DNA of 64,000 bases, taken from the NCBI RefSeq assembly GCF_003076275.1, contig NZ_CP029064.1, forward strand, positions 4,382,001-4,446,000, in the 5' to 3' direction. Of the stretch, positions 7,588 through 16,912 are shown piece by piece (positions within the stretch are counted from its first letter, which is position 1; each line of letters begins with the position of its first letter). The position numbers were made by a program, and so were the translations under genes. Source of the DNA: Microbulbifer sp. A4B17. GTDB lineage: Bacteria > Pseudomonadota > Gammaproteobacteria > Pseudomonadales > Cellvibrionaceae. The notes under the pieces were generated by a model. The model was given only the letters and a program-made list of their open reading frames with translations, did not search any database and was not told the origin of the DNA.

Positions 7588-7639
7588 ATTCCAATAAGTA
7601 GCGGCCGGCCAGCGGCACTGTAAACCTTGAGATGTGATT

Positions 7640-8755
7640 ATGAAGAAGTGGTTATTTGCGGGGCTTTGCAGTATTGCGCCGCTCGCGCTGGCTCACGTAC
7701 CAGAAAGCGCCCTGGAAGCCTGCCAGGATCTATCCAACGGCGCCAGCTGTGCTATGGAACTGCCCAACGGCCGGATGAGTGGCCGCTGCCGTACCCTGCC
7801 CCAGTCACACGGCCTGGCCTGTGTTCCTGAGCGAAAATCGGCAGCGCGCCCAACCGGGAGCGCCGCTGGCGGACGCCCCGCAGCCCGCAAACATACAGTA
7901 GTGCAGTCCGACGGTCTGCAGCACACAGTCCCTGCTACCGAGGCGCCCATCACCTTTAGTGAAGTGAGTATCAGTATTCAAGGGCCTTGGCGCGTTATTG
8001 AGGCCAACGGTATTTCCGAGCACAAGACTGGCACCTTCCCCAATCGCGGCAATCCCCATGAAATCGAGGTGCAGCGCTACCGTTTTCGAGTTCCGGCTAT
8101 ACCCCAGATCGCCGCTCAATCCACACCGGTTCCGCTACAGGATTTTGGTATCGGCCTGAACGGGGTACCCTTCGACCCCAGTGCCGCCGAATGGTATCTG
8201 GGCAACCGCGGGCGCTGGCGCTACGAAGCCCTATCCGGTGCGATTCAGTTAGGTGTAGACGATAACTACGCCCACGTTCAACCCAATGGCGCCTACCACT
8301 ATCACGGCATTCCCACCGGCTTGCTGCAGCGCCTGGGGGTGTCCAAGGAAAGGCATTCACCGCTAATTGGCTGGGCTGCCGATGGCTTCCCTATCTATGC
8401 CCTATACGGCTATGCCGATGGTTGGGAGCCGGAATCCGGTATTGTGGCGATGAAGTCGAGCTATCAGGTGAAACCAGGGAACCGCCCCAAAGGCAGTAAA
8501 GAGCCAGGAGGTTACTACGATGGCACCTTTGTAGATGACTACCAGTATGTAGCCGGCTCCGGCACCTTGGACGAGTGCAATGGCAGGATGGTTCGTACCC
8601 CGGAATTTCCTCAGGGTACCTATGCCTACTTCCTGACTGAGGACTGGCCGATTATCCCACGCTGCTACAAAGGCACACCATCAGAGGATTTTCGTCGTGG
8701 CCCCGGTAACAATCAGCGTGAGAGGACAGCCAAAAGACCAGCCAGACGCCTATGA
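7640..8755 (+). CDS. Secreted YHYH-domain protein with N-terminal Cys module
   Basis: Predicted secreted protein of 371 residues: signal peptide (about residues 1-18), Cys module (Cys28, 37, 50, 61) like that of the upstream gene, a basic Ala/Arg-rich linker, then a YHYH domain. The domain has the diagnostic NGAYHYHG motif, a GWAADGFPIYALYGY segment and later ECNGR and YFLTEDWP elements. YHYH proteins are widespread in marine bacteria and their biochemical role is not settled; the His-rich motif suggests metal binding. The gene follows its partner by 52 bases, probably in one operon. ATG at 7640 is preferred to GTG at 7634. The C-terminus is rich in arginine. Confidence 0.85.
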   Translation: MKKWLFAGLCSIAPLALAHVPESALEACQDLSNGASCAMELPNGRMSGRCRTLPQSHGLACVPERKSAARPTGSAAGGRPAARKHTVVQSDGLQHTVPATEAPITFSEVSISIQGPWRVIEANGISEHKTGTFPNRGNPHEIEVQRYRFRVPAIPQIAAQSTPVPLQDFGIGLNGVPFDPSAAEWYLGNRGRWRYEALSGAIQLGVDDNYAHVQPNGAYHYHGIPTGLLQRLGVSKERHSPLIGWAADGFPIYALYGYADGWEPESGIVAMKSSYQVKPGNRPKGSKEPGGYYDGTFVDDYQYVAGSGTLDECNGRMVRTPEFPQGTYAYFLTEDWPIIPRCYKGTPSEDFRRGPGNNQRERTAKRPARRL

Positions 8756-10548: not shown

Positions 10549-10992
10549 ATGTCGTCTATTACTCTTCGCGGCGCGATCCTGGCGCTCGCCATGGCCTCGA
10601 CCTCCGCCCTGGCTGCGGATCACGAAGTTAAGATGCTGAACCAGGGCAAGGAAGGCATGATGACTTTTGAACCGGCATTTCTCGCGGTAGCACCGGGCGA
10701 TTCTGTCACCTTCCTGCCCACTGATGCCGCCCACAACACTCACTCAGTTTTGTCCCCTGCCGAGGGCGCTACCTGGAATGGCAGCATGGGAGAAAAGGTG
10801 ACTGTCACCTTGAACCAGGAAGGTGTCTACGTATACCAGTGCGACCCACATCTGCCACTGGGTATGGTTGGGGTAATTCAGGTAGGTAAGGCAACCAACT
10901 TGGAAGAAGCCAAGAAGCATGCCGAAGGCATGAATGCCGGTATTGCTATGAATAAGGAGAGGCTCACTCAATACCTCGGCCAAGTCCAATAA
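10549..10992 (+). CDS. Pseudoazurin (type 1 blue copper protein)
   Basis: Periplasmic electron carrier of 147 residues with a signal peptide (cleavage near ALAAD, residue 23). Ligands match the pseudoazurin pattern: His62 in AHN, then Cys98, His101 and Met106 in CDPHLPLGM, the C-X2-H-X4-M loop. Pseudoazurin passes electrons from the cytochrome chain to copper nitrite reductase or N2O reductase, though neither gene is in this window. The tail after residue 113 is helical and charged, as in the family. A perfect FNR/ANR-type site lies upstream. The next gene starts 13 bases after the stop, indicating an operon. Confidence 0.93.
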   Translation: MSSITLRGAILALAMASTSALAADHEVKMLNQGKEGMMTFEPAFLAVAPGDSVTFLPTDAAHNTHSVLSPAEGATWNGSMGEKVTVTLNQEGVYVYQCDPHLPLGMVGVIQVGKATNLEEAKKHAEGMNAGIAMNKERLTQYLGQVQ

Positions 10993-11005: not shown

Positions 11006-11803
11006 GTGGACATCCTATTTGAAAAAGGTCACCACCTGGTTGCGCGGTTCGGCGATTTGGTCAAAGAGCAGAATGGCAGCGATGGGGTACAGGCCAATCA
11101 ATTTGTTATTCGCCGCGGCACCAAAGGGGCGCTTATCGATCCCGGCGGCGATCTGACCTACACACACCTCACCATTGAGCTCAGCCGCCATTTGAACCTG
11201 AGTGAACTGGACCTGATCCTGGCCTCTCATCAGGATCCAGATATTATCGCCTCGCTGCCGCGCTGGATGCTGCATTCGCGCTGTAAGGTAGCGGTGTCGA
11301 AACTGTGGTCGCGGTTTTTGCCACACCTCGTTTCTGGCTTTGTCGCCTCGCGTGCCGGTGCTGAGCGCTGGCAGGAACGCATCATGCCTCTGGATGATAA
11401 GGGAGAGATTATCCCCTTCAGCGACAGTGAGATCTGGGCGCTGCCAGCGCACTTTATGCACTCCTGTGGCAACTTCAGTTTTTATGACCCGGTCAGCCGC
11501 ATATTATTTTCCGGCGATATCGGTGCCTCCCTCGGTGGTGAGGAGGGCGAAGTCAAAGATTTCGACGAGCACCTGCCGTCGATGGAAGGGTTCCACCGCC
11601 GCTATATGGGCGGGAACTGGACCTGCCGTCTCTGGGCCAAGATGATTCGGGAACTCAACCCCGCAATGATTGTGCCCCAGCACGGCGGTTACTTTGCCTC
11701 AGGCGATGTCAAAGAGCGCTTCCTGGGCTGGCTCGAGCGCCTCGAATGTGGGCCGGACCTGTTGCGACACCAGGACTTCCGCCTACCCCTGGGCCGCTCT
11801 TAA
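11006..11803 (+). CDS. MBL-fold di-iron oxygen-binding-type protein (ODP)
   Basis: Metallo-beta-lactamase-fold protein of 265 residues resembling the di-iron domain of flavodiiron proteins but lacking flavodoxin and rubredoxin domains. The metal motif is HQDPD (His75, Asp77, Asp79), followed by PAHFMHS, FSGDIG and PQHGGY, the remaining metal-binding loops. The flavodiiron HxExDH motif is altered: Asp replaces Glu and the last His is absent. Stand-alone relatives bind O2 or NO at the di-iron centre. Start is GTG at 11006 with AAGGGGAG ending 7 bases upstream, right behind pseudoazurin. Sharing an FNR/ANR-controlled transcript suggests O2 or NO handling at low oxygen. Confidence 0.85.
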   Translation: MDILFEKGHHLVARFGDLVKEQNGSDGVQANQFVIRRGTKGALIDPGGDLTYTHLTIELSRHLNLSELDLILASHQDPDIIASLPRWMLHSRCKVAVSKLWSRFLPHLVSGFVASRAGAERWQERIMPLDDKGEIIPFSDSEIWALPAHFMHSCGNFSFYDPVSRILFSGDIGASLGGEEGEVKDFDEHLPSMEGFHRRYMGGNWTCRLWAKMIRELNPAMIVPQHGGYFASGDVKERFLGWLERLECGPDLLRHQDFRLPLGRS

Positions 11804-11841
11804 TCCACCATCCCGCAAGCGGGAAAGTTGCACCGGCAGAG

Positions 11842-11873
11842 GCCAGCCCATACACTGCGGGCTGGCTTGTTTT
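11842..11873 (+). terminator. Terminator-like hairpin after the ODP gene
   Basis: GCCAGCCC / GGGCTGGC stem (8 bp, 9-base loop) followed by TTGTTTTC, 38 bases after the stop. It probably ends the pseudoazurin-ODP transcript. Confidence 0.65.
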
Positions 11874-11885
11874 CTGAATACCGCC

Positions 11886-12233
11886 ATGCACACCGGGATC
11901 TTCCGCCTATTTTTGCTCATACTGTTACTGGCCTTCGGCGGCCAGGCAGTAGCGTCATCCTGTGCGGAAACACACGAATCCCCAGCGGCATCCATCGCCG
12001 CAGAAGAAAAAACCCACTGCGACGGGGCAACCCTTGAGAACTGCAGCGATAGCCATCCCTCCAGTTGCACCGCTGAGTGCAACTGTTGTGCAGGGCCAGG
12101 CACCAGCTCTGCAGTAAACACTCAATATAAAATCCTTGTATACAACCGCAATCTACTTGTAACAGCCTACCGGGAATTTAATTCCTCTCCAGATCCGGAA
12201 ATGGCACTGCGCCCACCCATATTCCGCACTTAA
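11886..12233 (+). CDS. Cys-rich secreted protein of the copper block, unrecognised
   Basis: Predicted exported protein of 115 residues: hydrophobic signal peptide (MHTGIFRLFLLILLLAFGG), then a cysteine-rich core with ASSCAE, HCDG, ENCSD, SSCTAECNCCAG. A dense Cys cluster after a signal peptide, directly ahead of a DUF411 lipoprotein and CopA/CopB-like genes, suggests periplasmic metal binding, but no family is recognised. Start ATG at 11886 is chosen because it opens the signal peptide; an upstream extension to 11670 would overlap the ODP gene and the terminator. An 18-bp palindrome lies just after its stop. Confidence 0.65.
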   Translation: MHTGIFRLFLLILLLAFGGQAVASSCAETHESPAASIAAEEKTHCDGATLENCSDSHPSSCTAECNCCAGPGTSSAVNTQYKILVYNRNLLVTAYREFNSSPDPEMALRPPIFRT

Positions 12234-12258: not shown

Positions 12259-12341
12259 CGTACTCCCCAGTTTTACTCCAAATATTTTTTATAAATACCC
12301 GCACACCTATGTGCGCCCTAAATCTCATCACCGGAGTTCAT

Positions 12342-12830
12342 ATGAACCGTTCAATTTTGATCGCTATTGCTGCGCTACTCACAACCCTGGCATTAAGCGC
12401 CTGTGCCGAATCTCCAGACCCCCAAAAGGAATCTGTGAGCCTGACCACTTATAAATCCGCCACCTGCGGCTGCTGCAAAATTTGGGTTGAGCATGCCCAA
12501 CAAAGTGGCTTTGACGTCGTAGCAAAGGATGTCGAAGATCTTAACGGCGTAAAAAAGCAGCACCATATCTCTCCGCGCTACCAATCCTGCCACACCACAG
12601 TGTCAGAACAGGGCTATGTTTTTGAAGGGCATGTACCGGCAAAGCTGATACAGCGTTTCTTGCAAAATCCACCGCAAAATGCCATTGGCCTCGCAGTGCC
12701 AGGTATGCCCCTGGGCAGCCCCGGCATGGAAGTGGGCGACCGTTTTACGCCCTACCAGGTAATGCTGCTTAACAAAAACGGCAGCAGCGAAATTTACGCC
12801 GAAATCAATACGGCACAAGAGCAGTTTTAA
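12342..12830 (+). CDS. DUF411 metal-binding lipoprotein
   Basis: DUF411 protein of 162 residues. The lipobox LSAC gives a lipidated Cys21, so it should be membrane-anchored in the periplasm. The DUF411 signature TCGCCKIW (Cys42, 44, 45) is a likely copper(I) or silver site; two more features, SCHTT and the VPGMPLGSPGM methionine stretch, are typical. DUF411 genes usually sit in copper-resistance clusters, as here. Start ATG at 12342 has CCGGAG 5 bases upstream; an ATG-like start at 12309 would spoil the signal peptide. The next gene follows after 11 bases, consistent with an operon. Confidence 0.9.
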   Translation: MNRSILIAIAALLTTLALSACAESPDPQKESVSLTTYKSATCGCCKIWVEHAQQSGFDVVAKDVEDLNGVKKQHHISPRYQSCHTTVSEQGYVFEGHVPAKLIQRFLQNPPQNAIGLAVPGMPLGSPGMEVGDRFTPYQVMLLNKNGSSEIYAEINTAQEQF

Positions 12831-12841
12831 AAGGGACGTCG

Positions 12842-14632
12842 ATGACAGAGAGCTTCCGCACCGACGCCGTATCGAGGCGTACTTTCGTCACAGGTCTTGG
12901 AGCGGGAGCCCTGCTGCTGGGGTTACCCCACAGTTCGCACCCAAACTCGCCAACAGCATCGACAACAACCCTGCGCGGTAACCACTTTGATCTATCCATC
13001 GGTTACCGCCAGGTAAATCTTACCGGGCGCGAACGACAAGCCCTTACCATTAATGGCAGTCTACCGGGCCCCATTTTGCGCTGGCGGGAAGGGGAAACTG
13101 TCACCCTGAATGTCCATAACCAATTACCCGACAAATCCTCCCTACACTGGCACGGTGTTAGGGTACCCAGCGATATGGACGGCGAACCGGGGCTGAGCTT
13201 TAGCGGCATTCAACCTCGGAAAATATTTCGCTACCGATTCCCAGTACGCCAAAGTGGTACTTATTGGTATCACAGCCAATCCGGATTTCAACAACAGCGG
13301 GGGCTAATTGGAGCAATAGTCATTGATCCGATATCTCCAGAACCATTTTCTTACGAGCGGGATTATGTTGTTGTCCTATCCGATTGGAGCGATGAATCTC
13401 CCCAAACTATTTATACCCATCTAAAAAAAGACCCGGACTACTACAACCGGCAACAGCGCACGGCTACAGATTTATGGCGTGAAGTGCGTACAAAAGGTGT
13501 CGCACGAACCTGGCGGGACCGGCACCAATGGAACTGGAAACAACTTTCTGACCGCAATATCTCCCAGGTCACAGGCGAGACTTACACCTACCTGATTAAC
13601 GGGCATACACCCGATACCAATTGGACTGCATTATTTAAACCTGGTGAGAGGGTTCGCCTGCGATTAATTAACGCAGCTTCGATGACCTTATTCGACCTGC
13701 GTATCCCCGGCCTGAAAATGAAGGTGGTGGCGGCCGATGGACAAAATGTCGAGCCCACTAGCGTCGATGAAATTCGCATTGGCAACGGTGAAACCTATGA
13801 CGTAATTGTCGAGCCAGAGAGCGAGCTGGCCTACAGTATATTTGCGCAGTCCATGGACCGCAGTGGCTATGCGCGAGGCACTCTGACAAGTGATATACGT
13901 CTGAGCGCAGAAATTCCCGCGATGGATCACCGCCCAGTGCTCACTCTGCAAGATCTGGGACTGGCGAGAAAAGCCGAGGAGACAAACACTCACTTTAAAA
14001 CCGCCCAGACTGCTCACACCGAAAAACATTCCGACTTGCCCGATGCAACTGAGGGGGGATGGTTTTACGGAAACCTTGCCGCCGCAGGACTCGGTAGTAA
14101 TAGCCCTATCATTCACCAGCCAAGTGAATCCAGCTTCAGGGTGGATCATCGCGCGCTGACGCCAGGAAACGGAATCGCCGACCCCGGTGTAGGACTCAGA
14201 CACCACAAGCATCGCTATAACCGCCGTGTACTGACATACAGCGATTTGCGCAGCAGTAAACCTACCCAGGATCAACGGGAGCCACAGCGGGAATTACAAT
14301 TGCACCTGACCGGCAATTATGAGCGCTATCTCTGGTCAATAAATGGTGAAAAATTTCGCGATGCCAGCCCATTCTTATTTCGGCACCAGGAGCGCCTGCG
14401 TATTACCCTGGTCAATGACACCACGCTTCCCCAGCCCATGCACTTACACGGTTTTTGGAGTGAGCTGGAAACCGGTGACGGAGAGTATTTACCTCGCAAG
14501 CACACGGTGATCGCGCAACCCGGATCAAGCATCAGTTACTTGGTCAGCGCCGACACCTATGGACGCTGGGCTCTACACAGTCAAATGCTTTACCAAAGGC
14601 CCGGTATGTATCGGGAGGTGCGCATTGTTTAA
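12842..14632 (+). CDS. CopA-type multicopper oxidase homologue lacking most copper ligands
   Basis: Tat-exported periplasmic protein of 596 residues (SRRTFVTG at 11-18) with the three-cupredoxin layout of CopA/PcoA. Motif 1 is intact (LHWHG, His102, 104), but motif 2 reads WYHSQ (Gln146 for His), motif 3 QPMHLHG (Gln531 for the type 1 His), and motif 4 HSQMLYQRPGM, where family members have HCHLLYH. So type 1 Cys580 is Ser, its His585 is Gln, and two type 3 His are Gln, while both type 2 His (102, 534) remain. Electron transfer from a type 1 site should be impossible. The Met-rich copper-binding stretch of CopA is also missing. It may act as a copper binder or scaffold. RBS AGGGA. Confidence 0.88.
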   Translation: MTESFRTDAVSRRTFVTGLGAGALLLGLPHSSHPNSPTASTTTLRGNHFDLSIGYRQVNLTGRERQALTINGSLPGPILRWREGETVTLNVHNQLPDKSSLHWHGVRVPSDMDGEPGLSFSGIQPRKIFRYRFPVRQSGTYWYHSQSGFQQQRGLIGAIVIDPISPEPFSYERDYVVVLSDWSDESPQTIYTHLKKDPDYYNRQQRTATDLWREVRTKGVARTWRDRHQWNWKQLSDRNISQVTGETYTYLINGHTPDTNWTALFKPGERVRLRLINAASMTLFDLRIPGLKMKVVAADGQNVEPTSVDEIRIGNGETYDVIVEPESELAYSIFAQSMDRSGYARGTLTSDIRLSAEIPAMDHRPVLTLQDLGLARKAEETNTHFKTAQTAHTEKHSDLPDATEGGWFYGNLAAAGLGSNSPIIHQPSESSFRVDHRALTPGNGIADPGVGLRHHKHRYNRRVLTYSDLRSSKPTQDQREPQRELQLHLTGNYERYLWSINGEKFRDASPFLFRHQERLRITLVNDTTLPQPMHLHGFWSELETGDGEYLPRKHTVIAQPGSSISYLVSADTYGRWALHSQMLYQRPGMYREVRIV

Positions 14633-15371
14633 GAATGTAGCAGGGATAACAGCAACACTATGGATACTTGCTGCCCAGACCAGCTATGGGCAGGCAGACT
14701 CTCAGCATCAACGCCACAGCTACCAGTCCTCTGACGAGGATAACGAAGAAGAACCCATGGCTGAAGTCAGCCTCGACTATGTGGAGCTTCGAGGTGATAA
14801 CGGCGGAGAAATCGAGGGAGACTTCAGTTATGGCGGAGAGCAAAATAAGTTTGTTGCCGAAGTGGACTATGAGCGAAGCAGTGGGGAAATTGAAAAAAAT
14901 GAATTATGGGCGCTCTATAGCCGGGCAATTTCGGCAAACTGGAATTTCCTAATTGGAATTCGCCACGATTTTAATCTGGAGACTACCAGCAGGAATTGGG
15001 TTGCTGTGGGTATTACTGGAGAGTCTCCCTACAAATTTGAAATGGATGCAGTATTTTTCTATGGAGAACATGGCAGTACTGCATTCCGCCTGGAAGGTGA
15101 GTATGAAATAAAGTTGGCACAGGACTGGAACCTAGTCCCACGTATCGAGCTGAACTTTTTTGGACAGAACGATGAGGCCCGAGGTAGCGGCTCCGGCTTA
15201 TCGGAAGCGGAAGTCGGCCTTCGGCTCATGTATGAAGTCACCAGGAAATTTTCACCCTATATTGGCATCCACTATGAACGGGAAGTGGGCAATGCCGCTG
15301 ATTTCGCCCGTGAAGAAGGCGAGGATGTGGTCTCGACCGTATGGGTGCTGGGGTTTAGAGCTTGGTTTTGA
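14625..15371 (+). CDS. copB: CopB-like copper resistance outer membrane protein
   Basis: Predicted outer-membrane beta-barrel of 248 residues of the CopB/PcoB family, partner of CopA in copper tolerance. After a signal peptide (TLWILAAQTSYGQ) and a short acidic/His linker comes the barrel with family-like stretches such as LRGDNGGEIEGDFSYGG, WNFLIGIRHDF and YIGIHYEREVG, ending in aromatic WF as barrels do. It starts at TTG 14625, overlapping the multicopper gene by 8 bases, with GGGAGG 6 bases upstream, indicating coupled translation. It lacks the Met/His-rich N-terminal repeat seen in Pseudomonas CopB, matching the loss of the Met-rich region in its partner. Confidence 0.87.
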   Translation: MFKNVAGITATLWILAAQTSYGQADSQHQRHSYQSSDEDNEEEPMAEVSLDYVELRGDNGGEIEGDFSYGGEQNKFVAEVDYERSSGEIEKNELWALYSRAISANWNFLIGIRHDFNLETTSRNWVAVGITGESPYKFEMDAVFFYGEHGSTAFRLEGEYEIKLAQDWNLVPRIELNFFGQNDEARGSGSGLSEAEVGLRLMYEVTRKFSPYIGIHYEREVGNAADFAREEGEDVVSTVWVLGFRAWF

Positions 15372-15883
15372 TAAAAAAATTTTTGTATCCGTATCGAATG
15401 TACCACACGATATTTACTTCTATCGACTTTACCACTCCATCAATCTGCCATAACATTTAATAACACACAGAAAGTGACTGATATCAATTTTTATAAATAA
15501 TAAAGCCCAGCAAGGATATCGGTGATATAGTTTATTCATGAACAGTAAAAACTTCAGCTTTTCTTTTATTATTCATATCACGAGCTACCTAAAACTTATA
15601 GAGCTATCTTTCTATCACCGTATCAAAAATAAACCAGCTGCAAATACCTGTGGTAAAATCCATTGATTTAGGCACAAATAAAATAAAAGGATTTAGTTCG
15701 ACGTGAACAAACTAGCAACTACTGGCATACCAGTTAACACTTACGTACCAAACAAGTGGAATAAAGCGCCAGTTTTCAAAGATAATCACCCTTAAATTAA
15801 CCCTCTAATCGACTCAAATAAAAGTTCCACCCTAAAATAGATATAAATGGAAAACAACTTTAAACTAAAAAAGGATTCTACAT
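15372..15883. other. AT-rich gene-free stretch
   Basis: About 510 bases of low GC with no credible frame. It contains the promoter of the following orphan gene, whose weak AAAGGA lies 9 bases before its start. The composition drops sharply here, marking entry into accessory DNA. Confidence 0.5.
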
Positions 15884-16912
15884 GTGAAACAATTTAAACT
15901 TTTCTCTATTATTATTTTTTTCCTGACTTCAAGTTCCAGCTTTCTGATAGCAGAAGAGATAGAGCCTACCAAAGCAATGGATTTGAAAGAACCTCCAATG
16001 GTGATAATCCACGGGCCCATATCTATCCCGATTCTGGCTGATCCAGGAAACGTTGTTCCTGATCATCTAGAGGCATTTGGATTCTATCAATCAGGGTGGG
16101 AAAAAGAAGACATTCCTGATGCGGCAACATTATCAACCTTTGTTAATATAGACTACGGAGATGTTGATACATATTTGGAAGTTGCAAAAAATAGTGGCAC
16201 CAAAGTTTGGATCTCTCTTAGGTCAGTTTTCTTTAGTGGATACAATGATGGCTACATTAAATATGACAACTATTATGACAATTGGATGGAAGCCAAGGAA
16301 AAACTAAAACCCTACGAAGAGATCATCTATGCATTTGACCCTATTGATGAGCCATACCATCGCTCATACATGCCAAACAATGAATTAAAGGAGTATCTAG
16401 AAGAAATTGGGCTTTTGCTTAAAGCAGACTTTCCCAACGCACACAGGGCAATAACTTTTACAAAAGATACCGTGGGGGAAATGAAAGATGAATACAAATT
16501 TCCAACAAACTGCGACTTCTATCCTTTGTGCTACCCTCCACTACCACCTAGCAACTATGATTTATTTGGTGCAGACTACTACAAGCATATAAATTTTCAG
16601 TATGATGTAGTTGAAGATCTTATGTATGCAACACAGGATATGAATGTAAAATACTATATTATACCTCGCGCATTTAAAACCGACAGCCCAAGCTACAGCG
16701 TTATGACAGAGGAGCAGTTGATTCTTCGAGCCTGGGATGCTTATGATTATGCTACTAGCAATGAAGACATTATAGCCATATTCCCGTTCGTTTGGCGTGA
16801 AGCTGGGAACTCTGTTAATGAACCTTATACTTATTTTGGGGTTAAGACTCTTCCCTTATTAAGAAGTCAATACGAAATAATTGGAAAGGCAGTATCCATG
16901 TTTAGAAATTAA
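15884..16912 (+). CDS. Secreted protein, possible TIM-barrel glycoside hydrolase-like
   Basis: Exported protein of 342 residues (signal peptide to about residue 23, SSFLIAEE) from an AT-rich gene. I do not recognise the family. Alternating predicted strands and helices, an acidic motif FDPIDEPYHR (Asp155-Glu156 at a strand end), FGADYY and a later VWREAGNS resemble the active-site strands of TIM-barrel glycosidases, where Glu or Asp follow beta-strands 4 and 7. That is only a fold guess. Start is GTG at 15884, since the overlapping ATG at 15881 is followed at once by a stop. Isolated between divergent contexts and of different composition from its neighbours, it may be acquired. Confidence 0.65.
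   Translation: MKQFKLFSIIIFFLTSSSSFLIAEEIEPTKAMDLKEPPMVIIHGPISIPILADPGNVVPDHLEAFGFYQSGWEKEDIPDAATLSTFVNIDYGDVDTYLEVAKNSGTKVWISLRSVFFSGYNDGYIKYDNYYDNWMEAKEKLKPYEEIIYAFDPIDEPYHRSYMPNNELKEYLEEIGLLLKADFPNAHRAITFTKDTVGEMKDEYKFPTNCDFYPLCYPPLPPSNYDLFGADYYKHINFQYDVVEDLMYATQDMNVKYYIIPRAFKTDSPSYSVMTEEQLILRAWDAYDYATSNEDIIAIFPFVWREAGNSVNEPYTYFGVKTLPLLRSQYEIIGKAVSMFRN

Follow-up and report, generated by a model that had tools for sequence, protein, structure and literature searches.

According to the excerpted text of PMC3548706, PcoB is never found without PcoA, the two occur as a fusion in Legionella that speaks for a close tie between them, and CueO and PcoA are termed mutually exclusive; the same excerpts report a Halothiobacillus neapolitanus genome that carries both CueO and PcoA, linked to each other. 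Cu(II) passes through PcoB (PMC9210255, in excerpt), and in Caulobacter the PcoB tail stabilises PcoA (PMC12509749, in excerpt); these two papers differ on the direction of copper through CopB, and in them that direction and the service that PcoA/CopA renders to PcoB/CopB are described as unsettled. Escherichia coli SufI/FtsP, an oxidase fold exported by twin-arginine translocation (Tat), has most of its copper ligands replaced and lacks a Met-rich segment (PMC2661564, in excerpt). The subject of this report is a CopA-family protein with eroded copper sites, encoded ahead of copB in a 64,000-nucleotide stretch of Microbulbifer sp. A4B17 (contig NZ_CP029064.1, positions 4,382,001 to 4,446,000), hereafter the window. 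With moderate confidence, we regard it as the copA orthologue of one clade of marine Microbulbifer that has become non-catalytic, has passed Cu(I) oxidation to CueO and is kept as a partner of the CopB channel.

In sequence, tree position, operon place, Tat-type leader, fold and a copB directly downstream, window CopA is like CopA/PcoA (TIGR01480); it differs in that the type 1 site and part of the type 3 site are gone, as are the Met-rich segment, most of the conserved Met residues and the tail motif of CopB. The gene runs without a break for 596 codons, from an ATG at 12842 preceded by AAAGGG to a TAA at 14632, in agreement with the frame and ribosome-binding site described in the initial annotation, and its Tat-type RR pair is present as well. 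Its product scores 714.5 bits with the TIGR01480 (copper_res_A) profile, passing the cut-off of 478.95, and contains three multicopper oxidase domains in Pfam; among 14 control genomes, the same profile matches seven, one of them above cut-off. An AlphaFold2 model built from 38 sequences (predicted local distance difference test score, pLDDT, 86.9; predicted template modelling score, pTM, 0.86) adopts the multicopper oxidase fold with its three cupredoxin-type domains and matches laccases, CueO and SufI, a result that informs on fold and confidence rather than on metal content or site geometry.

Motif 1 (LHWHG) is intact, and the other three motifs carry the five replaced ligands that had been read from the sequence (HSQ, QPMHLH and HSQMLYQ): H146, H531, C580, H581 and H585 have become Q, Q, S, Q and Q, respectively. 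Within motif 4, which reads ALHSQMLYQRPGM, the changes are C580S, H581Q and H585Q, whereas H579 and the axial Met, M589, are kept. Seven of the twelve ligand columns are thus retained, and the complete set of type 1 and trinuclear ligands is absent. On the assignment of ligands to copper types that we assume here, the type 1 site lacks its Cys and both His, two of the six type 3 His are gone, and the type 2 His, H102 and H534, are present. Cys is missing altogether from the CopA proteins of the window genome (G000) and of a second genome, G034; a type 1 site can therefore not form in these two, which also makes it impossible that neighbouring residues restore one there. Because G000 is a 100% complete genome in a single contig of 5.04 Mb and holds no TIGR01480 match above cut-off besides window CopA, the protein is not a paralogue standing beside an intact CopA.

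To place these losses among relatives, open reading frames (ORFs) of at least 300 aa whose summed score against window CopA exceeded 300 bits were taken from 197 loci of Microbulbifer, its family and other bacteria, and deduplicated to 153 distinct sequences; from a scan of a second genome collection the best 80 of 581 matches were kept. All twelve ligands are present in 143 of them; one is N-terminally cut, one differs in the axial Met only, and the remaining eight are altered Microbulbifer proteins. CopA matches occur in 43 of the 48 genomes of the genus, and full-length CopA with replaced ligands in eight (G000, G034, G021, G043, G030, G045, G009 and G044); losses common to eight separate genomes rule out a sequencing error or chance.

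The eight proteins share Q531, Q581 and Q or R at 585, and all keep H102, H534 and H536, so that retention of both type 2 His extends to the whole group. The consistency of the substitutions proposed in the initial annotation therefore holds for positions 531, 581 and 585 but not for 104, 144, 146, 579, 580 and 589, where the losses depend on the genome (H104 to Y; H144 to Q; H146 to Q, A or T; H579 to Q; C580 to S; M589 to I); Ser580 in particular is not a feature of the clade, as Cys580 is still present in five of the eight. The RR motif is kept and the copA frame is open in every one of these genomes.

An exact DNA pattern for motif 4 matched two genomes in a sample of 390 from the order, both of them Microbulbifer (G000 and G030; the sample contained none of the other six), and in a sample of 369 from the class it matched G000 alone. 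The pattern covers one variant of motif 4, and losses of a different shape could escape it; rarity beyond Microbulbifer rests on the 153 relatives together with this pattern. Among the titles and abstract openings listed from the literature on the family and on Microbulbifer copper, none is about a CopA/PcoA lacking copper ligands. A copper-binding peptide cluster has been described from Microbulbifer, in a report whose excerpted text does not contain the term CopA (PMC12538549).

In a tree computed by a quick method from 58 of 75 rows (those more than 50% identical), with the ligand columns removed, the altered proteins form one clade (Shimodaira-Hasegawa-like approximate likelihood ratio test, 100) on a stem of 0.39, nested within the Microbulbifer CopAs. 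In the 145 intact CopAs, conservation reaches at least 97% in 12 ligand columns and 97 others; all eight altered proteins retain 3 of the former and 76 of the latter (Fisher, 4e-4). The 97 divide again: of the seven conserved Met outside the ligand set, residues that may bind Cu(I), only M112 is kept throughout, compared with 75 of the 90 remaining columns (Fisher, 3e-4). M233, M493, M528 and M586 are changed in eight proteins, M529 in seven and M235 in six. Start-trimmed altered CopAs contain 7-14 Met and 13-25 His, versus 28-39 and 26-37 in 11 intact CopAs of the genus, a partial frame (L049) among them; window CopA, with 9 Met and 25 His, is Met-poor and close to the intact range in His. 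The alignment likewise has no Met-rich copper-binding segment in the altered proteins, in line with its reported absence from window CopA. On this sequence record it is well supported that erosion has been aimed at copper residues, with the rest of CopA under purifying selection.

The three invariant His invite another reading, namely that CopA is a residual metal-binder in which H102, H534 and H536 would carry mononuclear Cu(II) (or another metal) and hand copper to CopB. We consider this unlikely: besides their presence in all eight, the 25 His of window CopA and the HHS.Q or HHGLQ stretch kept in the altered-clade CopB tails inspected would suit a carrier, but the retention of ligand columns falls under that of the background columns given above, the HLHG sequence sits in a well-conserved segment, so that its His may be structural, and H104, H144, H146 and H579 vary inside the clade.

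Pairwise ratios of non-synonymous to synonymous substitution rates (dN/dS; Nei-Gojobori, own script, values rough for pairs of high dS) are 0.140, 0.139, 0.108, 0.094 and 0.107 in five chosen pairs of altered CopAs that are 73-96% identical, and range from 0.027 to 0.124 in 11 chosen intact pairs. They bear on the possibility that copA became redundant after the arrival of CueO and is drifting towards loss, as in a related genome, G029, from which both copA and copB are missing. A dN/dS of 0.14 in two of the five pairs, the long stem and the further ligand losses agree with such decay, which we nevertheless judge improbable, as all values lie far below 1, losses are concentrated on copper residues, the 75 conserved columns that are neither ligand nor Met are untouched in all eight, and frames and RR motifs persist; in G029, moreover, it is not copA alone that disappeared, since copB went with it and cueO is broken too.

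The second element of the favoured reading, a CopA relieved by CueO, concerns a protein of the same fold that acts as a periplasmic Cu(I) oxidase and is encoded by a separate, complete-ligand gene in the same eight genomes. In G000 it has 522 aa and scores 611.7 bits against the CueO cut-off of 525 (NF008205), a profile with which window CopA, lacking a complete site, reaches only 92.8 bits; beside cueO lies a gene for a MerR-type regulator, which scores 68.6 bits with the CueR model and so stays under its cut-off of 147.4. CueO above cut-off is present in 8 of the 48 genus genomes and in 8 of the 144 family genomes, which are exactly the eight with altered CopA, and its four ligand motifs are intact in all of them; 1 of the 14 control genomes passes the same cut-off. 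Also near cueO in G000 are ORFs with curlin repeats, the first of them matching PF07012, and a protein of CRISPR type, PF09344 (L246:1691-4480 and 14585-15661).

G029 belongs to the same clade in a tree of RadA (100/99), where it is sister to G043 (94/89); the tree includes 30 of the 48 genus genomes and its bootstraps are rough. G029 contains no PF05275 match. Nor does it have a CopA match at this position, the DUF411 and MBL genes now being direct neighbours there, and its cueO survives only as a remnant interrupted by stop codons, next to the MerR gene. It does encode a 705-aa ORF (L253:5901-8018) with intact oxidase ligand motifs, three Pfam oxidase domains and a C-terminal extension (about 196 residues when counted from HCH) that looks barrel-like by eye; the sister group, G038 (L255) and G040 (L254), carries the same oxidase of about 700 aa with its extension. 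The oxidases of these three genomes recall the Legionella fusion. Unlike the window pair, in which CopA and CopB are separate and copper-eroded, the G029 oxidase keeps all ligand motifs and its extension has no Pfam match.

Coordinates of the copA region are collected in the table below. In the window and in all seven other altered loci the gene order is RadA-like, pseudoazurin, ODP, Cys-rich ORF, DUF411, CopA, CopB, MBL-fold (metallo-β-lactamase) and TetR, with copB immediately 3' of copA; RadA is the name we assume for the ATPase gene at the head of the region. Pfam supports the window copies of the MBL-fold, TetR and RadA-like ATPase genes, and the Cys-rich ORF has no Pfam match at 0.001. 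If the putative TTG at 14625 is its start, copB overlaps the end of copA. All 11 intact loci have DUF411-CopA-CopB; within the stretches fetched, RadA is found in three, MBL/TetR in four, and at least one of these in six, which makes it likely that the altered and intact places are orthologous.

Table. Features of the copA region, numbered from the first nucleotide of the window
Feature	Position	Strand	Remarks
Pseudoazurin, same-strand	10549..10992	+	TIGR02375, 125.9 bits; adjoins RadA-like gene
ODP-family protein	11006..11803	+	PF19583, 225 bits; paired with pseudoazurin
orf136, small Cys-rich ORF	11823..12233	+	Between ODP and DUF411; same place in 7/7 other altered loci
DUF411 protein	12309..12830	+	PF04214; immediately precedes copA in both altered and intact loci
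CopA-family protein, eroded copper sites	12842..14632	+	596 aa; RR (Tat-type) at residues 12-13; TIGR01480; AlphaFold2 model
Motif 2, YWYHSQ (H144-S-Q146)	13271..13279	+	Second type 3 His replaced by Gln (H146Q)
Motif 3, Q531-P-M-H534-L-H536-G (QPMHLHG)	14432..14452	+	Type 1 His replaced by Gln (H531Q); type 2 and type 3 His kept
Motif 4, H579-S580-Q581-M-L-Y-Q585-R-P-G-M589	14576..14608	+	Type 1 Cys and His and one type 3 His lost
copB, outer-membrane barrel	14625..15371	+	PF05275, 212 bits; 7pge match; tail has lost its MDH motif; pore acids retained (D in place of E130)

The place of the gene also bears on a conversion like that of SufI/FtsP, in which the copper-free oxidase fold would support, as a scaffold, some envelope process that has nothing to do with copper. 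This is very unlikely in our view, despite the resemblance in export, fold and ligand replacement: window CopA scores 37.6 bits against the FtsP cut-off of 581 (NF008135) and thus belongs to another subfamily, SufI/FtsP has its role in cell division while the window gene is part of a copper operon, and DUF411 and copB flank the gene in each of the eight genomes, with copA and copB lost together in G029.

The pseudoazurin/ODP pair was considered as a compensation for the ligand losses, being present in the window and the seven other altered operons and in none of the 11 intact loci (stretches fetched). It was dropped because G038 and G040, which lack a CopA match there, have the pair next to RadA too, so that its presence at RadA probably predates the loss of ligands. 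More generally, pseudoazurin lies beside RadA in G029, G038, G040 and G020 as well, and several Microbulbifer, G029, G038 and G040 included, have the pair next to the RadA-like gene whether or not copA adjoins it.

CopB has changed in step with CopA. The tail motif M(D/N)H is found at none of seven altered-clade loci but at 11 of 11 intact Microbulbifer loci, and is absent from window CopB, whose Met-rich segment the initial annotation had given as lost; the claim is limited to Microbulbifer, for among 140 intact CopBs of all lineages an MxH tail is present in 42 and lacking in 98. Pore columns were defined by the E. coli PcoB residues named in PMC9210255 (in excerpt) and mapped through the 7pge alignment, except that position 97, just outside it, was placed by counting. 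None of the 11 altered-clade CopBs compared (eight primary copies, that of the window included, plus three second copies) has a change at D97, E187 or E223, and nine retain E207, among them all eight primary ones; the 140 other, intact CopBs show D at position 97 in 107 cases, E at 207 in 113 and Q at 179 in 84. Taken with the eight orthologues in one clade and the purifying selection on them, the change in CopB bears out, as far as sequences can, the suggestion of a family of paired CopA and CopB that has stayed in its operon but has probably given up oxidase chemistry.

Several further features of these loci were recorded. The HHS.Q or HHGLQ stretch of the CopB tails inspected follows soon after the leader (window 14625-14740). 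A second copB lies close behind the first in G043 (L040:5903-6646), G030 (L041:10813-11505) and G045 (L042:11006-11755), those of G030 and G045 having V at the E207 pore position. Near the locus, several altered genomes carry a YHYH-domain gene and a partial second match upstream (L038:13898-15300; relatives of window 7634-8755). A 342-aa ORF at window 15884-16912 begins with a leader-like stretch and matches nothing in Pfam; of the altered relatives that were compared, only G034 has a match to it nearby.

Ligand loss, the concerted change of CopB, the co-occurrence of CueO and the joint absence of copA and copB in G029, all established at the level of sequence, are the observations from which the reading of CopA as a non-catalytic partner is drawn. 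CueO would take over the periplasmic oxidation of Cu(I) to Cu(II), and this takeover would free CopA from oxidase chemistry. CopB would still need CopA as a folded periplasmic partner, for stability, docking or gating of the Cu(II) pore, so that CueO and the de-coppered CopA/CopB would together do the work of one intact CopA/CopB pair elsewhere. The partner role of CopA beside CopB is one that we infer. More tentatively, CopA/PcoA may in general have a second, copper-independent job that serves CopB/PcoB and is separable from the oxidase, and CueO, pseudo-oxidase and CopB may then form one split copper-defence system.

Several points weigh against this interpretation. CopA-CopB binding in this clade is presumed, and all the sequence evidence for the interpretation comes from a single clade. 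In the altered-clade CopBs, E130 is D in ten and V in one, Q179 is T, V, I or A, and PF05275 scores are 191-222 versus 248-291 in intact ones; these pore changes and lower scores mean that conductance may have changed or been lost. No family genome beyond the eight has CueO above cut-off (n=144), and compensation thus has no independent lineage for comparison; with CueO presence and ligand loss each in one clade, their match amounts to a single association and one co-loss. The oxidase that replaces the pair in G029 comes without a Pfam CopB match, its extension having no match of any kind in Pfam. A Microbulbifer-only reference of 28 intact CopAs weakens the ligand contrast (3/12 versus 186/292, p 0.012), and the stem of 0.39, with dN/dS at or slightly above the intact range, indicates that relaxed constraint plays a part.

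In summary, a natural CopA without copper chemistry that is yet kept with CopB would isolate the non-oxidase part of the job and make it testable. If the interpretation is true, this clade would add to SufI/FtsP another path by which a multicopper oxidase turns copper-free, one whose stages can be seen, in differing degrees, in closely related genomes. Nature would here have carried out a separation of function within one lineage, moving catalysis to CueO and leaving CopA with the role of partner.
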